From positions 1 through 64,000 of the forward strand of contig MPNE01000021.1 in NCBI GenBank assembly GCA_002238865.1: a stretch of 64,000 nucleotides of DNA. Direction: 5' to 3'. The position numbers and the translations under genes were made by a program. Of this stretch, positions 1 to 7,132 are shown one piece after another. This stretch comes from Gemmatimonadetes bacterium bin94 (GTDB lineage: Bacteria > Gemmatimonadota > Gemmatimonadetes > Longimicrobiales > Gaopeijiaceae). The notes under the pieces are model-generated. The model saw only the letters and a program-made list of their open reading frames with translations, was not told the origin of the DNA and searched no databases. Each line of letters opens with the position of its first letter. The first letter of the stretch is position 1.

Positions 1-551
1 ACCCCCCCCCCCCCGGCCCCCGCCCCCGCGGCCATCACTTCCCGGGACGGGTTCGGCGAGGCCAGCCAGACCTCGTCGACACCCGCCACCCTGGCCGTCA
101 CGGCCGTCATGAGCACCGACGACGGCAGGGGGAAGCGCCCCCCCGGCGCATAGCACCCCGCCACCCGGACGGGCACCAGGCGGTCGCCGGCCCTGCCCCC
201 CTCCACCGCCACGTCCACCGGAGCCGCCGACTCCAGTTGGGCGCGCGCGAAGTGCTCGATCCGGCCGGCGGTGCGCTCCAGCAACTCACGATCGGCCAGA
301 GGTAGCGACTCCAGGACAGCCCGCATCTCCCGGGGCGTCCTCAGAAGCGCCCCGCCGACTTCGAGACCGTCCCACCGCTGGGCGAATTCGCGCAGCGCCT
401 CCTCGCCCCGCTCCCTCACGGCCTCGATGATCTCCAGCACCGGCGCGATAATCTCCGGCGCCACCGCGGGCTGCCGCTCACGACCCACATCGGCGGCATT
501 CACCCGGCGCAGCCGAACCTCGAATCGTCCGCCGCCGGGACGATCACCCAC
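1..551 (-). CDS. hisD: Histidinol dehydrogenase, N-terminal part (truncated by window start)
   Basis: Manual minus-strand translation VGDRPGGGRFEVRLRRVNAADVG...RVAGCYAPGGRFPLPSSVLMTAVTARVAGVDEVWLASPNP matches the HisD GGR.PLPSSVLMTA region; GTG start overlaps the preceding stop codon. Confidence 0.88.
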   Translation of the reverse strand, partial: MGDRPGGGRFEVRLRRVNAADVGRERQPAVAPEIIAPVLEIIEAVRERGEEALREFAQRWDGLEVGGALLRTPREMRAVLESLPLADRELLERTAGRIEHFARAQLESAAPVDVAVEGGRAGDRLVPVRVAGCYAPGGRFPLPSSVLMTAVTARVAGVDEVWLASPNPSREVMAAGAGAGGGG

Positions 552-1872
552 GACCGCCTCCCGACGCCCCCGCTCCCTTCGGCTCCGACACCGCCCTTCT
601 GCTCACCACCAGGCTGCGCCTGTCCAATTCCCGTTCCACATCGGCCAGGTCCACGCCCGCCCGTTCCAGCGCCACGGCAAGGAAGTACATCACGTCGGCA
701 GCTTCCTCGACGACCCGGTTCGCGCTTGCCGGCTCACCGCGTCCGCCAGCGCGCTCACCAACCGCGCCGACCGCTTCGCCCAACTCCCCGGCCTCCTCGA
801 TCAGCTTCCCGCGGAGCAACGCCTCGTCGCCGAGCAAACGGCTCGTCAGAGACCCGGAGACCGGATTCGCGCCGCGGTCCGCGACCGTACGTTCCAGCGC
901 GCGGAGGCCACGCGCCGGGCCGAAGCACGTCCACTCGTCCCTGTGACAGAAGCCCTCGCCGGCCTGCACCACCGTAAAGCGCAAACTATCCCGGTCGCAG
1001 TCGGCCTCGATCCTCAGCAGGACCTGGCTCGCGCCCGAGGACTCTCCCTTTCGCCACAGGCCACGGGAGCGCGACTGGTAGATTCCGCGGCCCTCGTCGA
1101 TCGCGGCCCGCACGCTCTCCGGACCGGACCAGACCAGTCCCAGTGCCGCGCCCCGGTCATCGGCAACGACTGTCGGCCACAGCCCATCGTCGCGTTCGCA
1201 CTTCAGCGGTGCGGTGAACGCCTCGGCCAGCCCGAGATGACCGCGGTAGAGGGCCATGCCGACCTGGGCGTCAGCGCCCGCCGCGTCCAGCCACCCGATT
1301 TCTTCGGCAGTCGTGATTCCGCCGGCGACGGTCAGGCGCGCGGTCTCTGCTGCCTCCGCCAGTGGGGCGATCTGGTCCCTCGGGAAACCGCCCTCCCTGC
1401 CCTCGCCCTCGACAAAGGTCACCAGGAACCCGCCCGCCAGGCCGCGGAGTTCGCGCATGCCATCGTACACGGTGCGGCCGGTGCGCTCCGTCCACCCCTT
1501 GACCACGACCTCACCCTCCCACGCGTCGAGGGCCGCCACCACCCTGTCGCGCGGCAGGCCTTCCAGCACTTCCGGCACCGCCGCCGTGCCGAGGACGACC
1601 TTCACGGCGCCCCGGTTCAGCCACTCCAGCGCCGTGTCCCGGTCGCGTATCCCCCCGCCCACCCGGCAAGGGGCCAGCCGGCACAGCTCCTCGATCACGG
1701 CGGTGTTGGACCCCCTCCCGAGCGCCGCGTCCAGATCGACGACGGCCACCTCGCCAACTCGCCCGAACCGCTCCGCGATGGGACGCGGGTCGCCGGCTTC
1801 AAGCACCTTGCGGCGCCCTTGCACGAGCTGCACTGCCTGCCCGTCCATGAGGTCGATGGAGGGAATGATCAT
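544..1872 (-). CDS. HisA - HisI - HisE fusion protein (ProFAR isomerase / PR-AMP cyclohydrolase / PR-ATP pyrophosphatase)
   Basis: Single 442-aa ORF: HisA-like MIIPSIDLMDGQAVQLVQG...; HisI-like YQSRSRGLWRKGESSG...DCDRDSLRF...GFCHRDEWTCFG with the metal Asp/Cys residues; HisE-like LIEEAGELGEAV...NRVVEEAADVMYFLAVAL. Confidence 0.9.
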   Translation of the reverse strand: MIIPSIDLMDGQAVQLVQGRRKVLEAGDPRPIAERFGRVGEVAVVDLDAALGRGSNTAVIEELCRLAPCRVGGGIRDRDTALEWLNRGAVKVVLGTAAVPEVLEGLPRDRVVAALDAWEGEVVVKGWTERTGRTVYDGMRELRGLAGGFLVTFVEGEGREGGFPRDQIAPLAEAAETARLTVAGGITTAEEIGWLDAAGADAQVGMALYRGHLGLAEAFTAPLKCERDDGLWPTVVADDRGAALGLVWSGPESVRAAIDEGRGIYQSRSRGLWRKGESSGASQVLLRIEADCDRDSLRFTVVQAGEGFCHRDEWTCFGPARGLRALERTVADRGANPVSGSLTSRLLGDEALLRGKLIEEAGELGEAVGAVGERAGGRGEPASANRVVEEAADVMYFLAVALERAGVDLADVERELDRRSLVVSRRAVSEPKGAGASGGGRG

Positions 1873-2729
1873 GCGCTGGTCTCCTTTTCCGCGGTGTAGG
1901 CCGGGCGCACGGCGACCCCCAACCCCGACAACGCCGCCTTCACCTCCTGGACCGTCCAGTTCCGCTGGTGAAAGATCGACGCGGCCAGAACGGCGTCCGC
2001 CCCTGCCCGAACCGCGTCGGCCATGTGCTCGGGCGTGTCGGCACCACCGGAGGCGACGATGGGGATGCGCACGCTGGAGCGCACCGCACGGAGCAGGCCA
2101 AGCTCGTACCCGCTTCGGGTCCCGTCGCGGTCGAAGCTCGTGAGCAGAACTTCGCCGGCGCCAAGCTCGGCCGCCCGGCGGGTCCAGGCAACCGCGTCCA
2201 TCCCGACGCGCTCGGTCCCCGACCGCACGACGACTTCATAGCCGCTGCCGCGCGTGTGCCACCCCGCCGCGTCGACCGAAATCACGACGCACTGGGAACC
2301 GAATCGAGTTGCCAGCGCCGACAGCAACTCCGGCCGCCGGACCGCGGCCGTGTTCACCGCCACCTTGTCCGCACCCGCCTTGAGCAGGGCCGCGGCGTCC
2401 TCGACCTCGCCGATTCCACCCCCGACCGTAAGCGGCACCGAGAGACGGGCGCGCACCGCGCGAACCGTGTCCAGGCGAGTTCCCCGGCCTTCCGGCGTGG
2501 CCGTCACGTCCAGCACGACAACCTCGTCGGCGCCCTGCTCCTCGTACGAGTGGGCGAGCTCGGCCGGATCTCCCTGGTCGCGCAGTCCCTGGAACTTCAC
2601 GCCCTTGACGACCCGTCCCGCGCGCACGTCAAGGCAGGGCACGATACGCACCGGGAGCGACGCCGAATTGCCGGGCTCGACAATGGCCGAACGGCCGGAC
2701 CGGTTCCCGGGGGGCGGTGTCCACGCCAT
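1869..2729 (-). CDS. hisF: Imidazole glycerol phosphate synthase cyclase subunit
   Basis: RIVPCLDVRAGRVVKGVKFQGLRDQGDP...VGGGI...ASGGADTPEHM; exact N-terminus uncertain. Confidence 0.95.
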   Translation of the reverse strand: MAWTPPPGNRSGRSAIVEPGNSASLPVRIVPCLDVRAGRVVKGVKFQGLRDQGDPAELAHSYEEQGADEVVVLDVTATPEGRGTRLDTVRAVRARLSVPLTVGGGIGEVEDAAALLKAGADKVAVNTAAVRRPELLSALATRFGSQCVVISVDAAGWHTRGSGYEVVVRSGTERVGMDAVAWTRRAAELGAGEVLLTSFDRDGTRSGYELGLLRAVRSSVRIPIVASGGADTPEHMADAVRAGADAVLAASIFHQRNWTVQEVKAALSGLGVAVRPAYTAEKETSA

Positions 2730-2735
2730 GTGCCG

Positions 2736-3341
2736 CTAGGCCTCCAGCCAGTTGGACAGGAGCGCTTTGCCGTACGTACCCGAAAGCTCGGGGTGGAACT
2801 GGCACGCAACCACGGCGCCCCGTTCCACGGCGGCGAGAAACCGGCCCCCGTACTCGGACCAGACCGGGTGCCAGCCCGGGGTGATCGTTGCCAGTCGGTA
2901 CGAATTGGCAAAGTAGGCGAAGCCGCGAGGGACGATCCTGCACCCGTCCGACGGGCTCACGAGGTTCCACCCCATCTGCGGCACTCTCAGCTCGGGATGT
3001 CCCTGCCCGTAGCTCTCCACCTCGCCGTCGAGCAGACCCAGTCCCGTCACACCGGGGGCTTCTTCGCTGCCCCGCGCCATGAGCTGCATGCCGAGACAGA
3101 TGCCCAGGGTGGAGCGGCCTTGCAGCATCCTGTCGCGAAGGGCGTCCTCCAGACCACGCGTGTCAATGGCTGCCCGAGCGGCCGCGAAGGCGCCCACGCC
3201 GGGCAACACCACCCGGTCCGACCGGGCCACCGCATCCGGGTCGGCCGTCGTGCGCACGGAGCAGCCGAAGCGCTCGAATGCGGTCACAACCGATGCCAGG
3301 TTGGCCGTGCTCGTGCGCACCACGGTGACGGCAGGCGTCAC
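2736..3341 (-). CDS. hisH: Imidazole glycerol phosphate synthase glutamine amidotransferase subunit
   Basis: [19 protein letters not shown] (Cys nucleophile), [12 protein letters not shown]. Confidence 0.95.
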
Positions 3342-3997
3342 AGTACACCCTTGGTGGACGGAACATCGTCCGCGCCGGTCCTCGACAGCGCGGCCTTCAG
3401 CGCCAGGGCCAGCGCCTTGAACGCGGCCTCGATCCTGTGATGGTCATTGGCGCCGCGCAACACGTCGACGTGCAGGGTGAGGCCCGCGCCCTGCGCAAAG
3501 GAATGGAAGAAGTGCGGCACCATCTCGCAGGAGAGCGCGCCGACCCGCTCCCGTTTCAGACCCAGCTCCCCGGCGAAGAAGGGCCGCCCCGAGACATCGA
3601 CCACGGCGCGCGCCAGGGCTTCATCCAGCGGGGCATGGCAATGGCCGAAACGGACGATGCCTTCCCGGCGCTCACCGACTGCGCGCGCCAGCGCCTGCCC
3701 GAGGGCCAGACCGACGTCCTCGACCGTGTGGTGGTCGTCGACATCGAGGTCGCCGTCGCAGGACAGCTCCAGCTCCCAGCCGGCGTGGAACCCGAGCGCA
3801 TGCAGCATGTGGTCGAAAAAGCCGATCCCGGTCCCGGCCCTCACGCGTCCGGGCCCGTCCAGGCCCACGTCCACCCTGACGCGCGTCTCATGAGTCTCAC
3901 GAACGACCCGGCCCGTCCTACCGGGCCCGGGACCCGTCCTCACACCACCGCTCCCGGTCCTCGGCGCCTCTGCCGCCGCCTTCGCCCGATCAGCCAT
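3338..3997 (-). CDS. hisB: Imidazoleglycerol-phosphate dehydratase (monofunctional)
   Basis: [50 protein letters not shown] overlaps the preceding hisC-HAD stop. Confidence 0.95.
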
Positions 3998-5696
3998 CGA
4001 AAAGCCCCCCAAAGTTGCTGTTGCCGTCCACGACACGCGCCGCTCCGGCGGCGAGCAGTGCGCGCCGGATACCCCCTCCGGCGGCCTCGGACCCATCACC
4101 TCCCGGCGGCACCACTCCGACCGGCACCAACCTCGCAGCTTTCGCCGCGCACACGTCATCCGGCGTATCGCCCATCATCCAGGCCGTGTTCGCCTTCAGG
4201 CGCGCGACCGCCATCGTCACCGGCGCCGGATCCGGCTTGAGCGGCCCGTCCTCCCGGCAAATGACCGCGCCGAAGAAGCCCCGGATGCCCATTTCCCGCA
4301 GGAACCGCTCGGCGTCCTTGCGCGGCCGGCCGGTCACGATTCCCAGCTTGAACGCCCGGGCCAGCTCCTCGATCAGCTCCGGCGCCGGAATCAACGTCTC
4401 GTGCCGCCGCAGGCCCGGCGCCTCCCCGGTGCCCTGATAGGCCTCCTCGAAGCGGCGCGTCACCTCGGCCGGCGAGGCCCTCACACCCGCTTCCGTCAGG
4501 AGCGTCCGGGTCACGGCCCAGTCGTCGTTCGCGTGACCCCGGGCCTTGACCGCGTTGATCTCCTCGTTGCCGATGGTAACGCCAAAGGATGCACAGGCCT
4601 GCACGATGGCTCTCCGGTACGAGCGCCGCACGTCGGCGAGCACCCCGTCCATGTCGAAGATCAGCGCCTCCGGCTTCTTCAGGCATTGCATCGCCCGCTC
4701 GACACGGCGAAACTCGCCGTCGTCCCGTGGTACGGTTGTGCGCACAAACCCGGGCAGGTGATCGAAACAGCGCACAAGGATCCCCTGCGCGGCCATCCCC
4801 TGCCGGATCCAGACGGCATCGGGGAAGAGCGCGGAGACGAAGTTCGTCTGTGAGGACAACGGCATTCCGCCCGCACTCCGGATCAACGCAGCAAGTCGTT
4901 CCCGTCGGGAGGTCACGTACTCCACGAATTCACGCATCGACTCCACGCCCCTGTGCAACCGGTCAACCGCTATCGCGATCGACGGGCCGCTCAGCGAGTA
5001 GGGGCCGCCGTATCCCCGCAGGGTATCGATCCGTTCCTTCGACCCGACCGCGAAGCCGACGCGCAACCCGGCCAATCCCCATGACTTGGACATGGTTCGG
5101 ATCATCACCACGGTGGGGATATCGAGCAGGACCTCCGTGGGATCGGACTCGGCAAACTCGGCGTACGCCATGTCCACCATCAGGGTGACTTCTGCCGGGA
5201 GTTCCCCGGCCAGACGCACCAGCGCGTCGGTCGGGAACGCCATCCCCGTCGGGTTGTCGGGTGAAATGACCACCACCACGCCCGTCTTCCCGGTCACCGC
5301 GTCGAGGATCCGGTCGTGCGGCAACGTGCCCCACTCGTACTCGATCGGTACCAGGCGCCCTCCCGCCATGCGCGCGAAGGCGGGCACCATGATGAAGGTG
5401 GGGGTCGGAAAGACGGCGTCCTGTTCTGGCGCCAGGAAGGCACGGAACACCCGGTCGATGGCGTCGTCTGCTCCGGTGGTGGCGAGCACACGGGACGGAT
5501 CGGTCCCCAGGTATGCCGCATACGCCTCTTCCAGCTGCTCCGCGCCTTCGTATTTGCGGAACACGGCGGGACCAAGCTCCTCCAGCACGTCCAGGCACTC
5601 CCGGCCGGGCGGCTCACCCTCGTTCATGCTGAGGTCGATCACGTCGGCGGAGGCCGGGTCGATCACGGCGGCGGCCAGGTCGATCGGGTCGTTCAT
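3990..5696 (-). CDS. Histidinol-phosphate aminotransferase fused to C-terminal HAD-superfamily (subfamily IA) phosphatase
   Basis: HisC part with PLP Lys [20 protein letters not shown] part has [39 protein letters not shown]. Start ATG 5696 overlaps the hisG stop (ATGA); the longer tracked ORF start at 6647 is out of frame with hisG and rejected. Confidence 0.9.
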
Positions 5697-6598
5697 GGAA
5701 CGATCTGCTGGGGCGCGGACACGACGAGATCGGTGCCGCCGCGCGACCTGACATCCAGGATGAGCTCGGGCAGACCCCGCCGCGGGACCGCCGCCCGGAC
5801 GGCGTAGGCCCTCTCGCCGTGGAGACGCGACACCGTTGGTTCGCGCATGCAGGGCAGCACCGAAACCACCCGGTCGAAATCCGCCTCGGCGACGTTGAGT
5901 TCCAGCATCACCCGGTTCCGGGCCTCGAGGACGGAACTCAGGAGGAGGACCAGATCCTCGATCGCCCCGCGACGGACGGGGTCGTCGAGCGCAGCGCGGC
6001 CGGCATAGAGCCGCGTGGAAGACCGCATCAGGGTGTCCACGATGCGCAGCCCGTTCGCACGCAGCGTGGAACCGCTCGCCGTGTTGTCGACGATCAGGTC
6101 GGCATCCTCCGGAGGGAAAACCTCGGTGGCGCCGTACGAGCGCACCAGGACGGCGTCGAACGGCTGCCCGGCGATCCAGCGCCGGGCGGTGCGGACGTAT
6201 TCCGAGGCCACGACGAACGGACGCCCCGCCGGGTGGGCCGCGGGTAGCGCGCCGTCCGTGAGCAGGGCGACGGGGGCCGCGGCGACCACCCTCACCGGGT
6301 CCAGCCCGGTGTCCAGGAGTTCGACGACGTCGGCGTCGAGTTCGGCCACCCAGTCCGCCCCGGCAAACCCGACATCGCGCGAACCGGCGTGAAGCATTTC
6401 CACGACATTCTGGGGCTTCAGCAGCTTGGCCTTGAAGCCCGGCCATGAAACCAGGGGCCGATAGTTGCGCCCTCCCAGCCGCACGTCCACGCCAGCGTCC
6501 CCCAGCAATTCGAGAACGCCGGCCTGCATGTGGCCCTTGGGGAGGCCGATCCGGACTCCCGCGGTTCGGCGCGCACCACCGCGGTCGGTGTCTTTCAT
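5693..6598 (-). CDS. hisG: ATP phosphoribosyltransferase, long form
   Basis: VRIGLPKGHMQAGVLELLGDAG...DVGFAGADWVAELDADVVELLDTGLDPVRVVAA...DLIVDNTASGSTLRANGLRIV; about 300 aa with C-terminal regulatory-like extension. Confidence 0.93.
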   Translation of the reverse strand: MKDTDRGGARRTAGVRIGLPKGHMQAGVLELLGDAGVDVRLGGRNYRPLVSWPGFKAKLLKPQNVVEMLHAGSRDVGFAGADWVAELDADVVELLDTGLDPVRVVAAAPVALLTDGALPAAHPAGRPFVVASEYVRTARRWIAGQPFDAVLVRSYGATEVFPPEDADLIVDNTASGSTLRANGLRIVDTLMRSSTRLYAGRAALDDPVRRGAIEDLVLLLSSVLEARNRVMLELNVAEADFDRVVSVLPCMREPTVSRLHGERAYAVRAAVPRRGLPELILDVRSRGGTDLVVSAPQQIVP

Positions 6599-6645
6599 CT
6601 CCGGCAATGTCTTTCCCTTTCTCTCTTTTCGGATGCTGTCTGCAC

Positions 6646-6677
6646 AAAAAAAACCGGCCCCCCGCAGAGGAAGCCGG
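6646..6677 (-). terminator. Intrinsic terminator / candidate attenuator in the his leader
   Basis: Minus strand CCGGCTTCCTCTGCGGGGGGCCGG followed by TTTTTTTT; 9-bp stem including two G-U pairs; lies between leader peptide and hisG. Confidence 0.8.
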
Positions 6678-6709
6678 CGCTCCTGGTATGCCCGTCCGCT
6701 TTCGCTCGG

Positions 6710-6784
6710 CTATACCGTTACGCGGCCGCCTCTCTCGGCGCGACCGTGATGATGGTGCGGATGGGTCAGGAGATTCGTGTTCAT
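6710..6784 (-). CDS. hisL: Histidine operon leader peptide MNTNLLTHPHHHHGRAERGGRVTV* (24 aa)
   Basis: Manual translation: ATG at 6784-6782, CAT CCG CAC CAT CAT CAC, stop TAG 6712-6710; directly upstream of terminator and hisG. Confidence 0.78.
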   Translation of the reverse strand: MNTNLLTHPHHHHGRAERGGRVTV

Positions 6785-6793
6785 CAGGCCGTG

Positions 6794-6822
6794 ATGATCG
6801 TGGGAGCGGCGCCCGGTGTCAA
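6794..6822 (-). promoter_or_regulatory. Predicted sigma70-type promoter of the his operon leader
   Basis: Minus strand TTGACA - 17 nt - GATCAT; predicted start falls within a few nt of the leader ATG. Confidence 0.6.
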
Positions 6823-6907
6823 GGGTCATTGTGGCCGGGCGAGCCGCGAAGTATGCTCTCCATTCGGTTTGCCCCGTCCGCGTCCTCGATCACATCGGCG
6901 AATCCCC

Positions 6908-7132
6908 ATGAAAGTTCGACGCTCCCACTTCTTCCCGCGCACGCGCGCCGGCTGGATCGCGACGATCGCGTTCCTTCTGACCCTGGCGCTGGCGCAACCG
7001 CCCATTGTCCACGGCTTCATGAACCGGGTCGAACCGTGGATCCTGGGCATGCCCTTCCTCTTCGCCTACCTGCTCGGCGTTTACTGCCTCGTGATCGCCG
7101 TCCTGGTCTGGGCGCATCGAAAGGGACTGTGA
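6908..7132 (+). CDS. Small membrane protein (DUF3311-like), probable symporter partner
   Basis: MKVRRSHFFPRTRAGWIATIAFLLTLALAQPPIVHGFMNRVEPWILGMPFLFAYLLGVYCLVIAVLVWAHRKGL; two TM segments; stop overlaps next start (TGATG). Confidence 0.75.
   Translation: MKVRRSHFFPRTRAGWIATIAFLLTLALAQPPIVHGFMNRVEPWILGMPFLFAYLLGVYCLVIAVLVWAHRKGL

Follow-up and report, generated by a model that had tools for sequence, protein, structure and literature searches.

Attenuation of histidine operons by leader peptides is already known in Proteobacteria, where the enteric his attenuator (HisL; Rfam His_leader) combines a run of His codons in a short leader with mutually exclusive 1:2, 2:3 and terminator pairings and a his operon downstream. 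In a 2010 survey, the only leader-peptide attenuators reported outside Proteobacteria and Actinobacteria were bacillar hisS/hisZ leaders (PMC2965389). In 2022, comparative genomics contributed candidate his attenuators from Firmicutes (B. cereus group, Eubacteriales, Erysipelotrichales), with His-leader peptides of 3-5 His codons, a terminator and an antiterminator; the part of that study consulted does not mention a leaderless start (PMC9413887). In the trpL attenuator of Sinorhizobium meliloti, the 5' end of the attenuator RNA is the ATG of the leader ORF (PMC7298713), so leaderless attenuators are not new as such.

The element described here lies ahead of hisG on the minus strand of the window (the whole stretch of DNA analysed, 64 kb), and its close relatives with names are Gemmatimonadota / Longimicrobiales MAGs. 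We read it as a ribosome-mediated transcription attenuator that controls the his operon through a leaderless leader peptide, a reading based on sequence comparison and folding predictions and given a probability of about 0.92. Enteric-type his attenuator logic had been suggested in a preliminary description of this DNA, and conservation together with three competing predicted pairings supports that interpretation. Like the enteric system, the element has a His-codon run, exclusive pairings and a his operon; unlike it, strand 2 falls within the last codons of the ORF, the leader begins at or near the predicted 5' end of the mRNA without a Shine-Dalgarno sequence, and Rfam His_leader does not match. 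The Firmicutes candidates share the overall arrangement in another phylum, and S. meliloti trpL shares the position of the start codon in an alphaproteobacterial tryptophan system. The features are as follows (all on the minus strand).

6794..6822, minus: sigma-70-type promoter, TTGACA at 6822-6817, 17-nt spacer, GATCAT at 6799-6794
6710..6784, minus: leader peptide ORF of 24 codons, MNTNLLTHPHHHHGRAERGGRVTV followed by a stop codon, conserved in relatives and predicted to be leaderless
6746..6763, minus: histidine control codons, codons 8-13, H P H H H H, read from the sequence
6723..6746, minus: 1:2 hairpin CGGUCGC ... GCGGCCG from folding, directly after the last His codon
6720..6733, minus: strand 2, the predicted 5' arm of the antiterminator, within the final codons of the leader ORF
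6685..6716, minus: intervening stem GGUAU ... AUACC between the stop codon and the terminator, part of the minimum-energy fold
6666..6680, minus: predicted antiterminator 3' arm, also the terminator 5' arm (strand 3), GCGCCGGCUUCCUCU, with CCGGCUUCCUC invariant in the genus
6646..6678, minus: intrinsic terminator (hairpin and U tract), stem-loop 6678-6653 (11 pairs) and U8 at 6653-6646
5693..6607, minus: hisG, ATP phosphoribosyltransferase, first gene of the operon (TIGR00070 127 bits, TIGR03455 75 bits, both over cut-off)
3990..5702, minus: hisC-like aminotransferase fused to a HAD-type hydrolase domain (Aminotran_1_2 at 47-326 and HAD_2 at 347-525 of 570 aa)
3338..4159, minus: hisB, imidazoleglycerol-phosphate dehydratase, by profile match; the true start is probably downstream
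2736..3341, minus: hisH (TIGR01855 over cut-off)
1869..2729, minus: hisF (PF00977 255 bits; named hisF by gene order and its hisA-IE neighbour)
544..1872, minus: hisA-hisI-hisE triple fusion (His_biosynth, PRA-CH and PRA-PH in one 442-aa ORF)

From the gene order hisG / hisC-HAD / hisB / hisH / hisF / hisA-IE, the leader precedes most of a his operon. TIGR01141 stayed below its cut-off for the aminotransferase fusion, and the hydrolase part of the same protein was TIGR01548-like. Judged from its sequence, this HAD domain could supply the histidinol-phosphate phosphatase that the adjoining HisB lacks.

A 24-codon ORF with five His codons in a six-codon window had been proposed, and it was found in the sequence: His occupies codons 8 and 10-13, so that a short ORF with a run of end-product codons stands ahead of the matching biosynthetic operon, at hisG. 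The leaders of relatives contain 3-7 His per 8 codons; across leaders, nothing in the element is as constant as the His run, and the flanking peptide is variable. Five His in six codons within an ATG ORF appeared in none of 50,000 mononucleotide shuffles of the leader stretch, and no other ATG ORF of 8-50 codons with four His in eight was found on either strand of the whole window. In Candidatus Palauibacter and close MAGs (L124, L155, L157, L166, L167, L208), the leader peptide is MTNTHPYFGHHYYHRVRGGR or much like it, and Tyr and Phe codons lie among those for His; leaders of this type may also sense aromatic amino acids.

This constancy bears on the possibility that the hairpins answer a T-box, a riboswitch or an RNA-binding protein rather than a translating ribosome, the His run being incidental. 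Histidine T-boxes do govern his genes in Firmicutes and were proposed in Corynebacterium, according to two reports (PMC9413887, PMC3896937). Against such sensing, the peptide around the constant His run varies, and at the gathering threshold no Rfam family, His_leader and T-box included, matched the window or 20 loci. A relaxed search of 6550-6900 gave Phe_leader at 15.8 bits (cut-off 55), and His_leader was not among the matches; the comparison with the His leader model suggested beforehand thus left the element unmatched at either threshold. We consider sensing without a ribosome very improbable and retain ribosome-mediated attenuation.

The promoter TTGACA-17-GATCAT at 6822-6794 and the ATG 9 nt beyond its -10 box, both named in the preliminary description, are present in the sequence. 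The promoter has 10 of 12 matches and is the sole promoter-like site in 6400-7000, where shuffles expect 0.1. The leader ATG is at 6784-6782, 38 nt from TTGAC. An in-frame ATG also exists at 6829, but the -35 box lies downstream of it, and it is therefore absent from the predicted transcript. With a 17-nt spacer, a sigma-70 promoter is expected to initiate transcription about 35-36 nt downstream of the first base of the -35 hexamer, and this rule with the promoter-to-ATG spacing places the leader start codon at +1 to about +5. The predicted start site gives a 5' UTR of 0-4 nt, in which a Shine-Dalgarno sequence cannot fit.

Whether the transcript instead begins further upstream, which would make the element a his attenuator of the usual sort with a normal 5' UTR ahead of the leader peptide, can be weighed from the same spacing. 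For a longer UTR speak the weak -10 box of the window (GATCAT) and the 9-nt distance to the ATG, which gives 0-4 nt and not exactly zero. Against it, 88 of 98 leaders, drawn from many families, have TTGAC 34-40 nt ahead of the start codon (a count slightly inflated by taking the best-spaced of the in-frame ATGs in each leader), many leaders carry a TANNNT-like box about 7 nt before the ATG, and there is no space for an SD-like stretch. The leaderless-type promoter-ATG pattern is also enriched in the genome, with 51 matches versus 15 for a reversed control pattern, so leaderless-type initiation probably serves other genes of this genome too. A longer UTR therefore seems unlikely, and the conserved spacing supports the earlier suggestion that the leader lacks an SD and begins at or near the predicted 5' end of the mRNA.

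The intrinsic terminator with U8, placed about 50 nt ahead of hisG by the preliminary description, is present at 6678-6646, between the leader ORF and the first gene; the U8 ends about 38 nt upstream of the hisG TTG start and 47 nt upstream of the ATG start. In relatives, a conserved hairpin and T run follow 50-80 nt downstream of the leader stop. The expected hairpin after the His codons forms near the control codons in the predicted fold, with an exact pairing slightly different from that first drawn (CGGUCGC/GCGGCCG at 6746-6723). An antiterminator that uses the terminator 5' arm was likewise supported; the predicted pairing, AGAGG.GGCCGCGU with GCGC.CGGCU.CCUCU, is longer than the one sketched earlier and competes with the terminator. 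Folding predicted the mutually exclusive 1:2, 2:3 and 3:4 stems, as anticipated, and these pairings are conserved. The stem at 6685..6716 is predicted to draw the antiterminator arms together, and a similar GGUGU/AUACC stem was seen in relatives, judged by eye only. In leaders L163, L175, L185, L194 and L203, outside Gemmatimonadota, GGUGAUGGUG(UAG) recurs at the leader stop and is complementary, by eye, to the CACCAUCACC His-codon run; with this pairing, the 1:2 stem may reach across the His codons.

An alignment of 18 sequences of the genus varied little: 100% of cells were paired for the 1:2 hairpin and 98.1% for the antiterminator. The antiterminator is so well conserved within the genus that it cannot reveal compensatory change there, and compensatory changes were seen outside the genus only. 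The RNAalifold consensus of the genus was the antiterminator, chosen unaided, and that of 33 leaders from other genera was the terminator with the 1:2 hairpin. Among these 33 leaders, the 1:2 hairpin had 12 double-changed cells, with one pair of six types, and the terminator had five pairs with double changes; none of 500 shuffles reached either value, relatedness being ignored in both comparisons. The antiterminator was paired in 80.9% of cells of the same leaders, versus 35-43% when slid.

Folding the window leader with a ribosome at the first His codon gave 0.81 for the antiterminator and 0.00 for the terminator, and the terminator rose to 0.97 with the ribosome at the stop codon and was 0.96 without a ribosome. 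At full-length equilibrium, only the window leader and the leaders of a minority of relatives switched this clearly; in most relatives the terminator was preferred in all states, including the ribosome at the His codons, and co-transcriptional kinetics would therefore be needed there. In co-transcriptional snapshots before strand 4 (98 leaders), the median upstream pairing of strand 3 was 0.82 with the ribosome at the His codons and 0.44 with the ribosome at the stop; the shuffled-linker median was 0.65, and 93 of the 98 leaders exceeded their own shuffled control. Against shuffles, the energy of the antiterminator duplex was unexceptional for RNA so rich in GC (median z -1.2, window z +0.2), and 38 of 98 leaders fell in the best 5%. 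Because this signal is modest, covariation and ribosome-position folds were used instead.

The folding also touches the idea that a chance His-rich ORF stands before a fortuitous GC-rich terminator. GC-rich DNA folds easily, and the whole-leader z-score is only -0.97, a value uninformative in GC-rich RNA. This idea is nevertheless exceedingly improbable, since the His-run ORF is unique in the window and the element is conserved across families and near-single copy per genome (within the genus, by covariance model). Moreover, the neighbour upstream of the leader, a sodium:solute symporter, is divergent, and hence there is no upstream transcript for the terminator at 6678-6646 to end.

For the attenuator, we infer leader translation, the transcription start site, ribosome stalling and the histidine response, and propose the following course. 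RNA polymerase would begin transcription at the leader AUG or no more than a few bases away, and ribosome loading on this 5' AUG would need no Shine-Dalgarno sequence. When charged His-tRNA is ample, the ribosome would pass the His codons to the stop codon, where it would mask strand 2 or let strand 2 re-pair with strand 1; strand 3 would then pair with strand 4, and transcription would end at U8. When His-tRNA is scarce, the ribosome would stall on the His codons and cover strand 1, strand 2 would pair with strand 3 as antiterminator, and hisG-hisC/HAD-hisB-hisH-hisF-hisA/IE would be transcribed. With no translation, the 1:2 hairpin would allow the terminator to form.

Of the 23 genomes of the genus, 19 yielded a hisG match, and in 18 of these the element stands ahead of the gene; in one member (G009, L019) hisG is present and no attenuator was found. 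A covariance model (R1) built from the 18 genus elements matched ahead of hisG in each of the 18, and gave zero matches in the four genomes where hisG was not matched; since the matches before hisG are largely its own training sequences, the informative part is the near absence of other matches. Genome G006 carries an extra full copy with its own promoter and the leader MSTRARIATHRHHGHPGEGAA, before hisB in the same operon (L283 about 1675-1505; G006:C13:261455-261589).

Beyond the genus, about 100 further hisG upstream regions were compared; a His-rich mini-ORF and then a T run 50-80 nt past its stop occur in most of families f1, f2, f5, f7, f8 and f10 and part of f4. The conserved His-codon run and U-tract hairpin expected upstream of hisG in relatives were thus recovered in nearly every genome of the genus that has hisG, and most of the Gemmatimonadota families sampled carry equivalent elements before this gene. 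Family f3 and most of f4 have no element; there a hisZ-like ORF (assigned by sequence, not profile) runs straight into hisG, and in f3/f4 operons with internal hisG no attenuator was found within 2-5 kb upstream. No such element was found in 20 his loci (about 90 kb) with hisG behind hisZ or otherwise internal, and it was absent from five genomes of f11, another class. No Trp-rich or Ile/Leu/Val-rich leaders were found before trpE and ilvB in 14 genomes. Upstream of leuA in G231 and G126 (L263, L265), there are Leu-rich mini-ORFs (...LAVLLFSLLPLLLTLGAT; MQRHAVLLLTSALGRL...) preceded by TTGAC, 38 and 36 nt ahead of the ATG, and followed past the stop by a T run; from their sequence, they are possible leaderless leucine attenuators.

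Similar leaders accompany relatives of hisG in MAGs named Planctomycetota, Acidobacteria, Deltaproteobacteria and Spirochaetes. HisG of the genus shares about 60-68% identity with the HisG proteins of Myxococcota, Planctomycetota and other phyla, and only about 30-36% with most Gemmatimonadota HisG. A CGCCGGC-type terminator arm was found in 30 of 34 leaders with the genus-type HisG, from several phyla, and in zero of the other leaders, and GGCCCGTC-type arms go with the other HisG type, which at many loci of this second group was assigned from higher HisG domain scores and not from identity. As the type of terminator arm tracks the HisG lineage across phyla, these patterns suggest that hisG and the switch were inherited or transferred together. 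For the same reason, a switch kept in place while hisG was replaced was set aside in favour of co-inheritance. We tentatively picture, as a possibility still on the doubtful side, the leaderless his attenuator as an old transferable unit of Gemmatimonadota, Planctomycetota, Acidobacteriota and deltaproteobacterial lineages that moves with hisG, in which initiation at the 5'-terminal AUG would be integral, loading the first ribosome once the RNA emerges.

A literature search, with most subscription papers outside its scope, revealed no paper on leader-peptide attenuation in Gemmatimonadetes or on leaderless mRNA in Gemmatimonas, and the lineage range and the consistently leaderless start appear to be unreported in the searchable literature. 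The predicted element brings Gemmatimonadota and several further phyla into the range of his attenuation, and its alignment is now available for an RNA family missing from Rfam. It also carries the prediction that leaderless initiation can couple transcription and translation tightly enough for attenuation.
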